DNA from: Candidatus Methanovorans sp.
GTDB taxonomy: Archaea; Halobacteriota; Methanosarcinia; Methanosarcinales; Methanosarcinaceae
Direction of reading: 5' to 3'
Assembly (NCBI GenBank): GCA_020793565.1
Contig: DQIP01000224.1
Span: 1-38,243 of the forward strand
DNA: 38,243 nucleotides
The position numbers and the translations under genes are program-made. The notes beneath the pieces are model-generated. The model was not told the origin of the DNA. It was given only the letters and a program-made list of their open reading frames with translations, and did no database searches. Of this stretch, positions 2,665 to 38,183 are shown in pieces. The stretch's first letter is position 1; each line of letters starts with the position of its first letter.

Positions 2665-3051
2665 TTATCCATACATAATATTCATAGCTTCATTTTCTCT
2701 TTGTTTATCTTTAATGTGTTCTTGTTCCTGGTATAGATTGAAATCCCATCGAATCTGGTTTGTTCTGGCATCTCTTTGTTTTTGCTCCCTTATTATTTGC
2801 CATCTCTTTTCTTGTTCACGTCTTAGCGTGACATTTCTTGGTTCATTGTCTATATCATATTGTTTCCGCTTGATTGGGTCTGATAGGACTGAATAAGCCT
2901 CTGCGATTTCTTTAAACATTTCTTCGGCTTCTGGCAACTTGTTTTTGTCGGGATGATATAGCAAAGCCAACCTGCGGTAAGCGGACTTAATATATTTTTG
3001 GGATGCTTTCTTATCAACGTCCAATATTTCGTAATATGTTTTTTTAACCAT
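2665..3051 (-). CDS. J-domain (DnaJ-like) protein
   Basis: A 128-residue protein with an N-terminal J domain (about residues 4-70), including the HPD tripeptide at 33-35 that stimulates Hsp70 ATPase. A highly charged, probably helical tail rich in Arg, Gln and Glu follows. It lacks the Gly/Phe linker, zinc-finger and client-binding domains of full DnaJ, so it is a J-domain-only co-chaperone rather than dnaJ itself. The start ATG has no clear Shine-Dalgarno sequence. It stands alone between the mer relic and a repeat-rich gap, without dnaK or grpE nearby. The partner Hsp70 and clients are unknown. Confidence 0.8.
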
Positions 3052-3235
3052 GGGTTATTGATATTGCTTTTTTTTGGTTTCGTGCAGATTATGTGTTCTT
3101 GTTCCAGACTCAAATGAATTCAAAACACGCGGCGATGCACTTTGGTGCACAGATTGTGCGGGATTCTATAAATGGTATGACTAACAGATATTTCCATTTG
3201 GTGACCAAGCTTGTTATTTATGTATCGAAGAACAA

Positions 3236-3415
3236 GAAAATCCTCCCTACGGTCGGATTAACTCGGACTACATAATCTTATAGATTATATACAACGAGAA
3301 AATTCACCCTGAGGTCGGATTAACTCAGACTATATGTTTATAAAACATATACCACGAGAAAATTCACCCTGAGGTCGGATTAACTCAGACTACATAGTCC
3401 TATAGATTATATACT
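3236..3415. repeat. Three tandem ~60-bp units with conserved hairpins
   Basis: Three units with starts of GGTCGGATTAACTC at 3251, 3313 and 3373 (period 62 and 60). Units 2 and 3 carry a short stem CTGAG/CTCAG around that core. Each unit is followed by a second stem: ATAATCT/AGATTAT in unit 1, ATATGTTT/AAACATAT in unit 2, and an imperfect ATAGTCC/AGATTAT in unit 3. Stem bases differ between units 1 and 2 while pairing is kept. A further partial copy is at 38017-38048. There are no spacers of CRISPR type. From 3416 to 3510 nothing else was recognised. Confidence 0.8.
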
Positions 3416-3515
3416 ATAAAAAATACAAAGTTACAGTATAATTTCACAATAAACTTTTTAGTAGAGAGGAACAATTGATTTTTCAATCGAATGTATATTT
3501 GTCTTAATTGCAATG

Positions 3516-3536
3516 CCCCACAGCTCTGCTGTGGGG
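3516..3536 (-). terminator. Strong hairpin just downstream of guaA
   Basis: A perfect 8-bp stem CCCCACAG/CTGTGGGG with a 5-nt loop lies 15 nt after the guaA stop. It is not followed by a T-run. A homologous hairpin, including its TGAAACT flank, follows the response regulator gene at 22320-22345. It may therefore be a terminator or an end of an IS200/IS605-like element. Confidence 0.5.
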
Positions 3537-3550
3537 AGTTTCATTTAAAA

Positions 3551-4135
3551 TTATAACTGCACCTGTTTATACTCCTCACAAACCTCCAAAAAGTTCATGA
3601 ACAACTCTTCCCCTTTTTCCGTATGCGCAACCTCCGGGTGCCACTGCACCCCATAAATAGGTTTTTTCGGATGGCGCATAGCCTCGATCTCGCATATATC
3701 GGAACGTGCAAGTTGTATAAATCCTTCAGGCATGACCGTGACCTCATCAGCGTGTGACGCCCAGACTGAAATATTAGGACCGATACCCCTCAGGATGTCG
3801 TCCTCATCGATAACTTCGACCCCAATATCGGCGTATCCGCCATGTTCGCCTGAACCAACCTCTCCGCCGAACGTTTTTGCGATCAGTTGATGCCCGAGGC
3901 ATATTCCCAATATCGGAACATCGATCTGTTCGATATATTCAGAACTGAGACCTACGCGCTCCATTGTAGGACCACCGCTTAAAATAAGTCCGTCCGGCCC
4001 TTTATCCATAATATCTTCTACCATGGTCATGTTCGATACGATCCTTGAATCCATGTCAAGATCACGTACTGTCCTGTGTATCAGGTGGCAGAATTGTCCG
4101 TAGTTGTTTATAACCAGTATCGTTAGTTCATTCAT
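3551..4135 (-). CDS. guaA: GMP synthase glutaminase subunit A
   Basis: Class I glutamine amidotransferase subunit of the archaeal two-subunit GMP synthetase. It hydrolyses glutamine and passes ammonia to the ATP-pyrophosphatase subunit that converts XMP to GMP. The 194-residue protein has the oxyanion segment SGGPT near 53-57, nucleophile Cys79 in GICLGHQ, and His166/Glu168 in WHPE. The ATG at 4135 ([11 protein letters not shown]) matches archaeal homologues; an upstream in-frame ATG at 4165 would add ten residues and is less likely. Subunit B is not in this window. Transcription probably starts from the TATA box at 4195-4210. Confidence 0.92.
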
Positions 4136-4194
4136 AATAAGTCCCATTTTTTTGGAAAAATGCATACACCTCTGTGTGTAATAATAGAATGCAG

Positions 4195-10304: not shown

Positions 10305-10367
10305 CTTTCTTTTTGTATTTAAATCCAGATTTAACCTTTTTTTCCTGAATTTTTGAATTGCAGGACA

Positions 10368-10566
10368 ACCTCTATAAGCTAAATATAGGATAACGCAGCA
10401 TAGATTTTTTACACAACAATGTTATTGAAAATGTTCAGTTTGATTCGACTGAGGTATATATTTCATAATGTTTGAAATACGCCGCCTGCGGCGGTATTGC
10501 TGTGCGGGGTTTTGCAATATGGACTATGCATCAAAATTTTATCGAAACCATCTATACAAATACGTT
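10368..10566. repeat. Dispersed ~200-bp element, copy 1
   Basis: It shares long blocks with 24484-24683: CGCAGCATAG, CAATGTT, the CGCCG/CGGCG hairpin near 10481-10494, TGTGCGGGGT, and an identical 3' end around ATCGAAACCATCTATACAAA. Its first ~80 bp also align with the interior of the GAGACTGTCGG MITEs (best with the copy at 37370-37500). No coding capacity is seen. The gap up to trmI ends here. Confidence 0.7.
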
Positions 10567-13212: not shown

Positions 13213-13328
13213 GGATAGGAATTTGTTGGAACTTGTTGTTAGTAGAGTGGACGTATTTGTTTAAGTAGTTTTGATGCCGGGTTACTCGCCGAATAAGAAA
13301 GAGCGATTACTCGCTCTCCCTCTTCTAA

Positions 13329-13362
13329 GAACCGGACTTGCAATTTTCACCACATCCGGCTC
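13329..13362 (-). ncRNA. Group II intron domain V
   Basis: 34-nt hairpin GAGCCGGATGTGGTGAAAAT followed by TGCAAGTCCGGTTC. It has the catalytic AGC near the 5' side, a GAAA-type loop and the closing GTTC, as in canonical domain V. A domain VI-like stem GAGCGA/TCGCTC follows at about 13295-13315. Confidence 0.88.
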
Positions 13363-13437
13363 AAGCCTTTCATAACCCTTTTTGTATCGGGCAGCAGTTA
13401 ACAATTAAATGGCATAATTGTTTTAAGACTACACTAT

Positions 13438-14570
13438 TCATGTAAATGAACAGATGTTCATTTCAACTCTATATGTTTTAGGCTTGTTAGCCATTTTACG
13501 AGCACGCAGTTTATTTCTCCGTACTTCGAAATATTCTTTGTCAATGTAGGGGTTTTTATCAAGTTTTGGACCTCTGTGTCTCAAAATCTTTGTATCTGAG
13601 AAGAGTTTTAGTTTGTTCTTTTTCGTAGAAAATACCCAATTCCGGGTCCCTTCACGGTGCCAGTATCTCTTGACTATCCAGGACCTGGACTTTTGGGGAT
13701 GTCTCCTCTTTGTCCATCTCCACAGCATGTTCCAGACTATATGGTCCAGTTTGCCGAATGTCTCTTTGGACACCACTGATTGATGGTAATTTGTCCATCC
13801 AGTAATAATGGGGTTGAGAGCACCAATGAGGTCTTCCTGTTTCCATGCCTTACCTTTTTTGATACTTTGGTAGGATTCAGATGATGTTTGTATACAAAAC
13901 CTGCTTTGAGAAATTGATTCAGAATCGATTTGTCCATTAGGATGTTATCCTGTAACCATTCATGGTTGATGTTGTCAAAACAACCTTTGATATCTCCTTC
14001 CAGTATCCACTGAGCAGAATTTCTTCTACTTAGACAGTTGAAAGCTTGCCCACAGGCATCCTGTGCGCTTCGGAATTTCCGAAAGCCAAAGGACGCAATA
14101 TCAGCAGTGGCTTCTGCAACAGGGTTTAATGCAAGGGCATATAATGCCTGCATTGCCCTGTCGTACATAGTCGGGATACCTAAGGGTCGTTTCTTCTTCT
14201 TACCAGATTTCTCAATGAAAACTCTTTTCAATGGTTTTGCTTTATAACTCTTGTCAGATAAACTAAGAGCAGCATTCATTTTAGCTTCGGGTGTTAACCA
14301 CTTTTCGCCGTCAATTCCTGCTGTTCTTTTACCCTTATTCTGACAAATCGTTCGTACTGCTAGTGATTTAGCATAGAACGAGTGGGTTAACAAATATTGT
14401 AGTTTCTTTACTGTTTGCCATTTTCCTTTTAAAACTGCTTTTGTAATTCTGGTTTGTAGCCTGTTAATATTTTTAATGACCTTTTTCCAATTGAAAATTT
14501 TCCATTGGATTTTTGGTCTCATATCTGCAAGTCTCTCGCTTTTGGGCGTCGTTGAATTACTTACATTCAC
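13438..14570 (-). pseudogene. Group II intron reverse transcriptase/maturase, catalytic region deleted
   Basis: Translation begins at a GTG (14570) preceded by CGGAGGT at 6-nt spacing. The first frame gives the RT N-terminal blocks: AGIDGEKWLTPEAKMNA, KKKRPLGIPTMYDRAMQAL, and EGDIKGCFDNINHEWLQDNI, which is RT block 3. Near 13861-13868, after HLNPTK, the sequence jumps out of frame to KGKAWKQEDLIGALNPIITG, the start of the maturase (X) domain, and runs on to WRWTKRRHP and a basic C-terminus ending at 13438. The QGG and YADD segments (RT blocks 4-7) are absent. This is an internal deletion with a frameshift, so the protein cannot be an active reverse transcriptase. A maturase fragment could in principle still be made. 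Confidence 0.88.
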
Positions 14571-15078
14571 AAGTTTACCTCCGTTCATACAATGAAACAC
14601 CGTTGGCAAGTCTGCACCCTTTCGGGTTGAGGCAAAGTTTGAACCTCTATCCAGTCCATTACAGACTGACATTCGCTTTTTACCGTTTCCGTTACCCCCT
14701 GAGCCTTCGTCAGCCCTTGTGGGCTTCCTACCCAGATATTATTGGGAGCTCATGGGGTTTACCAAGTTCCATATCTTGAATAATTCTAAATACCTTAGAA
14801 GCCATCTTTGAGCCGAGAATCATACGTCCATTCCCTATAATGTGCGACGAGCCATTATAGTCTGATTCCATGCCTTTTTTGGCTCAAGCGTATACAGTCT
14901 GCTTTCGCTTGTTGCCGTTCACGACTCTTACGATGATTCAACTTTCGTTTCTTCTTAGCATTTGTTACCCTAGCAGATCGTCTGGATCAGACTTCCGAAT
15001 TTTTCCACGTTGTCCTGTGGGCATCACACATTTCATTACTGATAATGCATGCCACAGTAGGGTCACTCCGAATGGAGG

Positions 15079-15120
15079 GAGTGGCATTTCTGCAATTCAA
15101 GATATGACTTTCTTGTCACA
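15079..15120. repeat. 40-bp dispersed repeat, copy 3
   Basis: Same sequence as copy 1 (111-152) with no obvious change over the 40-bp core. It lies about 50 bp outside the estimated 5' end of the group II intron and is followed by a small hairpin GCCGCTTTCGGC. Homology with copy 1 ends right after CACA. Confidence 0.75.
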
Positions 15121-24332: not shown

Positions 24333-24733
24333 GTATCCACTTCAAATCTAAGGGTAATATACCATTTTGTGAATCGAAAGATGCTTATGCACTTGATTTA
24401 GCGATTTTGACGCCGAAATAATCCTCCGGAGGCTTCGCATTCTCAAATAACTGGCGCGAACGGTGACGTTTTCGGGATATTTCAACTTATAGAATAAATG
24501 TTGGCAACGCAGCATAGCGTTTTTACGCACCAATGTTGTTAAAAGTGTTACGTTTTGCCCGACCGATGTGTATGTGTATCTTTTATAATGTCTGGAATCT
24601 GCCGCCTGAGGCGGTATTTCTGTGCGGGGTATTGTAGTATGGTTTGCCCATCTGAATTTTATCGAAACCATCTATACAAATATATTTTAGATAATTCGAA
24701 TATGTATTTTACCCTGCTTTTTGAAGTGGATAC
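24333..24733. mobile_element. 401-bp non-autonomous element with 24-nt inverted ends
   Basis: The left end GTATCCACTTCAAA-5 nt-GGGTA (24333-24356) is mirrored by the right end TACCC-5 nt-TTTGAAGTGGATAC (24710-24733). Fourteen terminal and five subterminal bases match perfectly. No transposase frame lies between. The flanks show no clear target duplication. Its interior contains the second copy of the dispersed ~200-bp element. Outside it, 24211-24332 and 24734-24907 hold no recognised feature except a palindrome ATGTGTATACACAT at 24217-24230. Confidence 0.65.
24484..24683. repeat. Dispersed ~200-bp element, copy 2
   Basis: Homologous to 10368-10566 throughout. It contains the hairpin CCGCC-TGA-GGCGG (about 24601-24613), where copy 1 has a different but also paired hairpin. 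Its left 80 bp, beginning ATTTCAACTTATAG, aligns with the inside of the MITE at 37370-37500. Confidence 0.7.
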
Positions 24734-26312: not shown

Positions 26313-26442
26313 GAGACTGTCGGAAAAGTGGTGAAATCGAAACAGTTTGATTAATATTCGCAAGTGAAACGCTATGCTGCGTAGCGAGAAATTTATTCAA
26401 CAAGTTGAAAACTCTCTAAATATGGACTTTTCCGACAGTCTC
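26313..26442. mobile_element. GAGACTGTCGG MITE, copy B
   Basis: A 130-bp element with near-perfect ends GAGACTGTCGGAAAAGT and ACTTTTCCGACAGTCTC, flanked by the 5-bp duplication ACATA (26308-26312, 26443-26447). An internal hairpin CGCTA/TAGCG sits at its centre. Probably the most recent insertion, as its ends match perfectly. Confidence 0.92.
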
Positions 26443-26673
26443 ACATAATCTATAAGATCATGCAGTCCGGGTAAATCCGGCCGTATTGAGGATTTTGTCG
26501 TAACACTGGCGTGTAAAAATGTCATGCTGCGGTTGGGTGTACCGTCGCAACGTTTGACCTATAAATAATCACCTGCCAGGATCATGCGAGCATCCCGATA
26601 CAATTAAATGTAATGGAAATATCGATGATGTATCATTCTAACGTACCGATTATTCAACTTATGAGGGCCTATA

Positions 26674-37339: not shown

Positions 37340-37369
37340 GAAATATTCCGTAAGTTTTATTGCCAAAGG

Positions 37370-37500
37370 GAGACTGTCGAAAAAGTACATATTTCGAGGC
37401 ATTTCAACTTATGAACTAAATGTGGCACAGCGCAGCATAGCGTTTCTACATGCCAATGTTATTAAGAATGTTTAGATTTTATCACTTTCCCGACAGTCTC
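37370..37500. mobile_element. GAGACTGTCGG MITE, copy D (inverted)
   Basis: A 131-bp element opposite in orientation to copies B and C, with ends GAGACTGTCGAAAAAGT and CCGACAGTCTC and duplication AAAGG (37365-37369, 37501-37505). It shares its interior with the dispersed elements at 10368 and 24484. Confidence 0.9.
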
Positions 37501-37551
37501 AAAGGATTAAAGGTAGAAGTAATGGAATAGACTTAGACAGGAGTTTTCTAA

Positions 37552-37773
37552 TTGAAAGTTGTTGCAAACGGAGTCTTTGGGCACCAAGATGTTATCACGG
37601 AAGTGTTAGTCATGGTTGAAAAGTCGTTGAATAATATATTGCCTGACAAGATAGAAAATCGAAAGGCTGATTGGTTAGATTATATGTGGACCCTGGACTT
37701 AAATTCGAGGTATAGTGACATGACACTAGTGTCATGTCAATTATCGAGTATCGGATTATTTGACCGAAACTGA
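37552..37773 (+). CDS. Small hypothetical frame with TTG start
   Basis: A 73-codon frame that would begin with TTG, preceded by AGGAG at about 8 nt. The predicted protein (MKVVANGVFGHQDVITEVLV and on) is not recognised. Its last third contains a perfect 24-bp palindrome, so the end may be an insertion scar rather than the true C-terminus. The good ribosome binding site is the main support. Confidence 0.35.
   Translation: MKVVANGVFGHQDVITEVLVMVEKSLNNILPDKIENRKADWLDYMWTLDLNSRYSDMTLVSCQLSSIGLFDRN
37716..37739. repeat. Perfect 24-bp palindrome
   Basis: Two 12-bp arms without spacer, TGACATGACACT and its exact complement, centred on CTAG. It is inside the 3' part of the small frame. Confidence 0.7.
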
Positions 37774-38016: not shown

Positions 38017-38048
38017 AACGAGAAAATCCTCCCTGCGGTCGGATTAAC
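38017..38048. repeat. Isolated copy of the 3236-3415 repeat motif
   Basis: AACGAGAAAATCCTCCCTGC followed by GGTCGGATTAAC matches the first tandem unit at about 3230-3262. It is a single partial copy without the second hairpin. The rest of 37774-38243 shows no supported gene. Confidence 0.65.
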
Positions 38049-38183
38049 GTACTATTATACCTTTCGATTTGATTCACTGAATAATGGTGACTCTCTTAAA
38101 AATGTCCGAAAATATGTTCCTGAATTGATACTACTTATCTGATTATTAGTACGCTACGCGCTGAGCTGAAACGTTCCGCTCTC

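Follow-up and report, generated by a model that had tools for sequence, protein, structure and literature searches.

The tandem repeats at 3233–3416 of the window (the whole 38,243-nucleotide stretch of DNA analysed here) are almost certainly copies of a mobile, structured, non-coding element that occurs 150 times or more in the 2.45 Mb genome to which the window belongs (counted with covariance model R2, which represents the first hairpin alone). Selection on the two-hairpin fold of the unit is strongly supported, and empty sites show that the unit moves whole and without target duplication, landing just 5′ of an A-rich motif, A|YNARAAA. On balance we regard the units as a non-autonomous mobile DNA element, probably of a single-strand type that is moved in trans by an IS200/IS605-like Y1 (HUH) enzyme. 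The genus of the window, which includes the MAG HMMV2, is taken here to be ANME-3; in the literature searched, no description of this element family in ANME archaea was found.

Architecture and covariation of the unit

The array consists of three head-to-tail units of 62, 60 and 62 nt (Table 1), with unit starts spaced by 62 and 60 nt, and so bears out the initial annotation, which had described three ~60-bp tandem units sharing a core and two hairpins. The core GGTCGGATTAACTC occurs without mismatch at 3251, 3313 and 3373 and with two mismatches at 38037. The initial annotation had also reported a single diverged copy 35 kb away; this copy is present, but is partial, and a full unit on the opposite strand had been overlooked. 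The array is far beyond chance, since its three units score 66–89 bits with a covariance model of the unit, at least 150 copies are present in the genome, and 101 of 120 genomes from the order lack any match to the unit model at E ≤ 1e-5.

Table 1. Units in the window, the right flank of the array and the neighbouring genes
Feature	Position	Strand	Remarks
Unit 1	3233..3294	+	62 nt; 89 bits; CAAGAAAATCC..ATATACAA
Unit 1, hairpin H1	3233..3265	+	CRAG-AA-AATYY-TC-NN-TNC-NN-TC-RRATT-AA-CTYG, conserved 2x2 mismatches
Unit 1, hairpin H2	3269..3291	+	AT-rich
Unit 2	3295..3354	+	60 nt; 66 bits; H1 3295-3327; H2 3331-3351
Unit 3	3355..3416	+	62 nt; 74 bits; H1 3355-3387; H2 3391-3413
A-rich right flank	3417..3424	+	TAAAAAAT; fits insertion-target motif YNARAAA
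Diverged full unit	26439..26500	-	47 bits, E 9e-7 (covariance model)
Partial unit	38019..38062	+	H1 only, H2 lost
Class-I glutamine amidotransferase (GuaA-like) gene	3551..4165	-	neighbour of the array
DnaJ-domain protein gene	2665..3051	-	neighbour of the array

The consensus unit is CGAGAAAATCCTCCCTNCGGTCGGATTAACTCGGACTACATAATCTTATAGATTATATACTA. Hairpin H1 begins at the 5′ end of the unit and is long, with two conserved symmetric 2x2 mismatches (consensus CRAG-AA-AATYY-TC-NN-TN(N)C-NN-TC-RRATT-AA-CTYG), and hairpin H2 is AT-rich, has a loop of ~3 nt and stops 3 nt short of the 3′ end. Units are 60–62 nt long and have no coding capacity, and their ends, CRAGAAAA and TATATACWA, do not form terminal inverted repeats. 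From the examined loci of the window's genome, 166 distinct units were extracted. H2 follows directly behind H1 at 260 of 277 H1 sites, in the same order throughout, the two hairpins being unlike in sequence; at the other 17 sites H2 is mostly decayed or truncated.

Pairing is maintained while the stem letters change. The H2 stem reads ATAATCT/AGATTAT in unit 1 and ATATGTTT/AAACATAT in unit 2, exactly as the initial annotation had quoted them, and it is retained in unit 3 with one G.T; unit 1 has a single mismatch in its outermost stem (CAAG/CTCG). The change between units 1 and 2 is a sample of a general pattern across units. Since RNAalifold alone retained just the core of H1, the named structure was counted directly in a MAFFT alignment of 68 units, in which 21 pairs were scored against 500 shuffles. 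Paired bases occupy 89.6% of cells, falling to at most 35% when the register is slid, and double-sided changes occur at 13 of the 21 pairs. Double-change cells number 100, against 32 (sd 4) in the shuffles, none of which reached 100, but these figures overstate significance because cells count sequences and not independent events. A stronger argument is reproduction in two families and across many pair types: in 42 units of the sister family, 93.3% of cells are paired, with 47 double-change cells at 9 pairs as against 15.5 when shuffled. Among 60 units, H1 alone has ten haplotypes that are Watson-Crick throughout, and its outer stem covaries as CGAG/CTCG in 77 units and CAAG/CTTG in 65, with 7 mixed. 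Both the covariation and the further copies in related genomes that the initial annotation had set as tests were thus found, and its claim of selection on structure is strongly supported by the two alignments. Covariation cannot discriminate RNA from single-stranded DNA.

The conserved mismatches differ in character between the strands. Read on the minus strand, all of them are G.A, T.T or G.T, the G.A and T.T being in tandem, and the apical loop is mostly GNA or GNNA; read on the plus strand, they are A.A, C.T and A.C. Tandem G.A, T.T and G.T are non-canonical pairs that stack. With RNA parameters, the minus strand gives the better fold, by 5 kcal/mol, in 60 of 68 units; with DNA parameters it does so in 58 of 68. 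This result is worth about five coin tosses and not 68, because the units share one consensus with five mismatch positions and are not independent replicates. This folding comparison is suggestive of the minus strand as the active folded strand.

Insertion sites and distribution

The ends of the unit are defined by sites that are empty in relatives. At one gene end, two congeners (G001 and G005) read GATAA[G/C]AAAAA|TAAAAAAAG (uninterrupted GATAA[G/C]AAAAATAAAAAAAG), and a third (G003) carries one 60-nt unit exactly at the bar, between A and T, without target duplication and with a one-base ambiguity remaining. In the window's species, a gene that runs without interruption in six of six relatives contains a two-unit array in its 3′ end, where the junction supplies a new stop codon; the alignment of locus L065 was read by eye. 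Elsewhere, a unit divides a gene within its final codons and has CGAGAAATTTG as its right flank where relatives have ATTAAATCTTG; as the two are equal in length, the CGAGAAA in this flank is probably host sequence. Further empty sites are found at loci L051 and L069. A separate intergenic repeat of ~275 nt (CCCCGC..AGCAATACCGCCGCAGGCGGCG) has copies in the window at 10307–10564 and 24397–24682 (minus strand) and in congeners, sometimes with a 62-nt unit near one end; its unit-free copies read CCCGAAAACGTC, and those that carry a unit read CGAGAAAACGTC behind it.

Of 138 arrays, 90 have a right flank that fits YNARAAA (background 0.29%) and 107 have an A as the last base of the left flank; base 3232, immediately left of the window array, is this usual A. 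Although coding sequence makes up 66% of the loci, all 186 arrays fall outside predicted genes (called with a custom codon-usage caller). Arrays contain one to four units in constant register; of the 112 in the window's genome, 71 have just one.

The orthologue of the guaA gene that neighbours the window array is without an adjoining unit in six of six congeners. Directly downstream of guaA, at 3504–3548, lies a strong, terminator-like inverted repeat (CCCCACAGC..GCTGTGGGG). On the other side, the DnaJ-domain gene and its leader (2665–3202) match G005 at four places with 90–92% identity, above the 83–87% of the adjacent guaA among congeners, which suggests that the DnaJ segment may be multicopy or recently moved.

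Units are present in all seven genomes of the genus (the window's and six others). Among 120 genomes of the order searched with model R1, 18 further genomes contain them, namely fifteen of the sister, ANME-2-type family (f2) and three of family f4; none of 18 genomes from other genera of the window's own family does (thirteen genera sampled). Outside the order, units occur sporadically in two other families of the same phylum; they score 55–61 bits, share the architecture and differ in part of their stem letters. Units with novel stems in such distant families lie at 1969–2031 of L262, 2037–2098 of L263 and 1993–2058 of L265, and one distant-family unit has TATAGGA/TCCTATA as its H2. These sequences hint that the element may be older, or more widely transferred, than the ANME lineages. 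A viral vehicle was considered and rejected, as viral contigs contained no exact match to the degenerate unit pattern. The nearest neighbour of a unit is in the same genome in 75% of cases, with 38% expected; units therefore spread within lineages. Dispersal of the motif, proposed initially from the distant copy, is strongly supported by this lineage-specific amplification and by the empty sites. Many contigs end in or near a unit, and so the element probably limits assemblies of these genomes.

Proposed mobilisation of a folded strand

Mobilisation by a single-strand, IS200/IS605-like route, which we infer, has in our estimation slightly better than an even chance of being the mechanism. The active form would be the minus strand as single-stranded DNA, TTTTYTNR|TWG-H2'-(linker)-H1'-TTTTCTYG|T. 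A transposase acting in trans, most likely an IS200/IS605-like Y1 (HUH) enzyme, would cut and rejoin this strand at a motif common to its two ends. The internal CRAG of H1, by pairing with the terminal CTYG, could act like a guide sequence. The target A|YNARAAA resembles the unit's own first bases, CRAGAAAA, and head-to-tail arrays would arise because a resident unit presents, at its start, a good target for new copies. Recognition by the enzyme would keep both stems paired while their letters drift, and compensatory changes would accumulate because selection for this recognition preserves pairing.

The ends of IS200/IS605 elements such as IS608 and ISDra2 have subterminal imperfect hairpins and insert beside a short target motif, and a tetranucleotide by the hairpin foot can pair with the element's last tetranucleotide (PMC6006769). 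Likewise, the unit's internal CRAG pairs with the terminal CTYG beside the foot of H1. Units differ in having neither tnpA nor tnpB, in the motif shared by the flanking target and their own end, and at the H2 end, where no guide is evident. No transposase or autonomous copy of the element was found, and none of the 277 H1 sites has a gene between H1 and H2. A Y1 transposase was rejected as a visible partner: PF01797 (Y1_Tnp) occurs in most genomes of the order irrespective of units, no unit was present in the examined flanks of 20 Y1_Tnp loci, of which 6 come from unit-bearing genomes, and the ends of the IS200 copies in G000 and G001 do not resemble those of the unit. The unit-rich G003, a bin that is 83% complete, gave no Y1_Tnp match, and TnpB had no match in ~0.8 Mb of examined sequence. 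A guide-target correlation was likewise rejected, since the 3′ flank (CGAG or CAAG) does not track the unit's own CTCG/CTTG.

At 37341–37720 of the window, beside the half unit at 38019, is an IS200-type Y1 transposase remnant split by a MITE-like repeat (GAGACTGTCG...CGACAGTCTC). A group II intron at 13288–15083 on the minus strand (Rfam D1D4 and D5 matches) is probably decayed, since its reverse transcriptase appears to be broken into two or more reading frames (13438–13776 and 13737–14672).

It is unlikely, although it deserves some weight, that the enzyme which moves the units is not of the Y1 (HUH) type but belongs to a new archaeal machinery inserting the folded strand at A|YNARAAA. Such a machinery would recognise the tandem G.A/T.T mismatches and the GNA loop. 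If this were true, it would be among the main sources of intergenic variation in these uncultured methanotrophs, and the units might perhaps have an RNA role too.

A structured RNA is a less probable explanation again. Units would then be transcribed, in mRNAs or as small RNAs, their hairpins would bind protein or stabilise or terminate transcripts, and spread would be secondary. The covariation in both alignments would fit, as would the better minus-strand fold with its tandem G.A and U.U and its GNA/GNNA loops. Among arrays flanked by codirectional genes, 48 have the plus strand as sense and 24 as antisense (p=0.006), but it is then the better-folding strand that is less often sense, and this bias may follow the A-rich leaders, which fit the target. 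Convergent (38) and divergent (32) gene pairs flank 70 of the 142 arrays for which both neighbours were called, tested sites differ between congeners, and no Rfam family matches at its gathering score (best sub-threshold match 16 bits, E=1). The mixed gene orientation and the absence of target duplication are the reasons for preferring a mobile DNA element with hairpins as recognition sites, which probably act in single-stranded DNA. What had been called an 'RNA or protein-bound hairpin array' is a structured hairpin array, the RNA part of the description being unproven.

Relation to known small repeats

The palindrome-associated transposable elements (PATEs) of Haloquadratum walsbyi offer the closest description. 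These archaeal, transposase-free elements lack terminal inverted repeats, have palindromes near both ends, are present in many copies without target duplication, and are just 52 bp long in their terminal-only forms; their palindromes receive insertions of other small mobile repeats (PMC3119063). Units resemble them in their near-terminal palindromes and in lacking terminal inverted repeats, coding capacity and target duplication. At L072 (2971–3246), an inverted-repeat element, GGCTGTCC..GGGACAA, sits within the H1 loop of a unit with CTAC on both sides, a further likeness. Units depart from PATEs in that their two hairpins have dissimilar sequences and their stems covary from copy to copy. 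They also assemble head to tail at a target that resembles their own sequence, and no IS605-type transposon whose ends match theirs was found.

It is quite improbable that a RAYT (TnpA-REP) drives the units as a classical REP/REPIN system. REPs are short intergenic hairpin DNAs of high copy number with compensatory hairpin changes, some tandem clusters and lineage-specific occurrence, so that size, location, copy number, stem changes and occasional clustering all fit (PMC3116915, PMC6006769). However, no associated RAYT was found, and units have an archaeal host and no conserved GTAG/GTGG foot, the tetramer beside H1' varying (GTAG, ATAG, GTAC), and their two unlike hairpins stand in direct order and form no inverted REP pair. 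The examined Y1 genes, at the 20 loci described above, have no flanking units, and in a survey of complete genomes archaeal TnpA-Y1 proteins belonged to the IS200 subclass only (PMC6006769).

Still less probable is a MITE that has terminal inverted repeats and depends on a DDE transposase for its movement: units are short, AT-rich, non-coding and palindromic in a genome that commonly carries further repeats of MITE-like type (GGCTGTCC.. and GAGACTGTCGG..), but their ends are not inverted repeats and the clearest empty site (G003 against G001/G005) shows no target duplication. Least probable of all is a minisatellite (MIRU/VNTR-like) spread mainly through recombination and slippage with incidental structure, for although head-to-tail arrays of one to four units in constant register would suit it, most arrays in the window's genome are single units, insertion is precise at a defined target (including that of the single unit in G003), and both stems covary. 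The MIRUs of Mycobacterium are dispersed intergenic units of similar length that form direct tandem arrays; the present units differ in their mobility at empty sites, defined target and covarying stems.

Taken as a mobile DNA element, the units provide evidence of hairpin-type mini-transposition in uncultured methane-oxidising archaea, with ends and target defined by empty sites. Their compensatory changes are an unusually clear sign that a folded DNA (or RNA) strand is under selection, and the guide-like outer stem would make the single-strand model directly testable.
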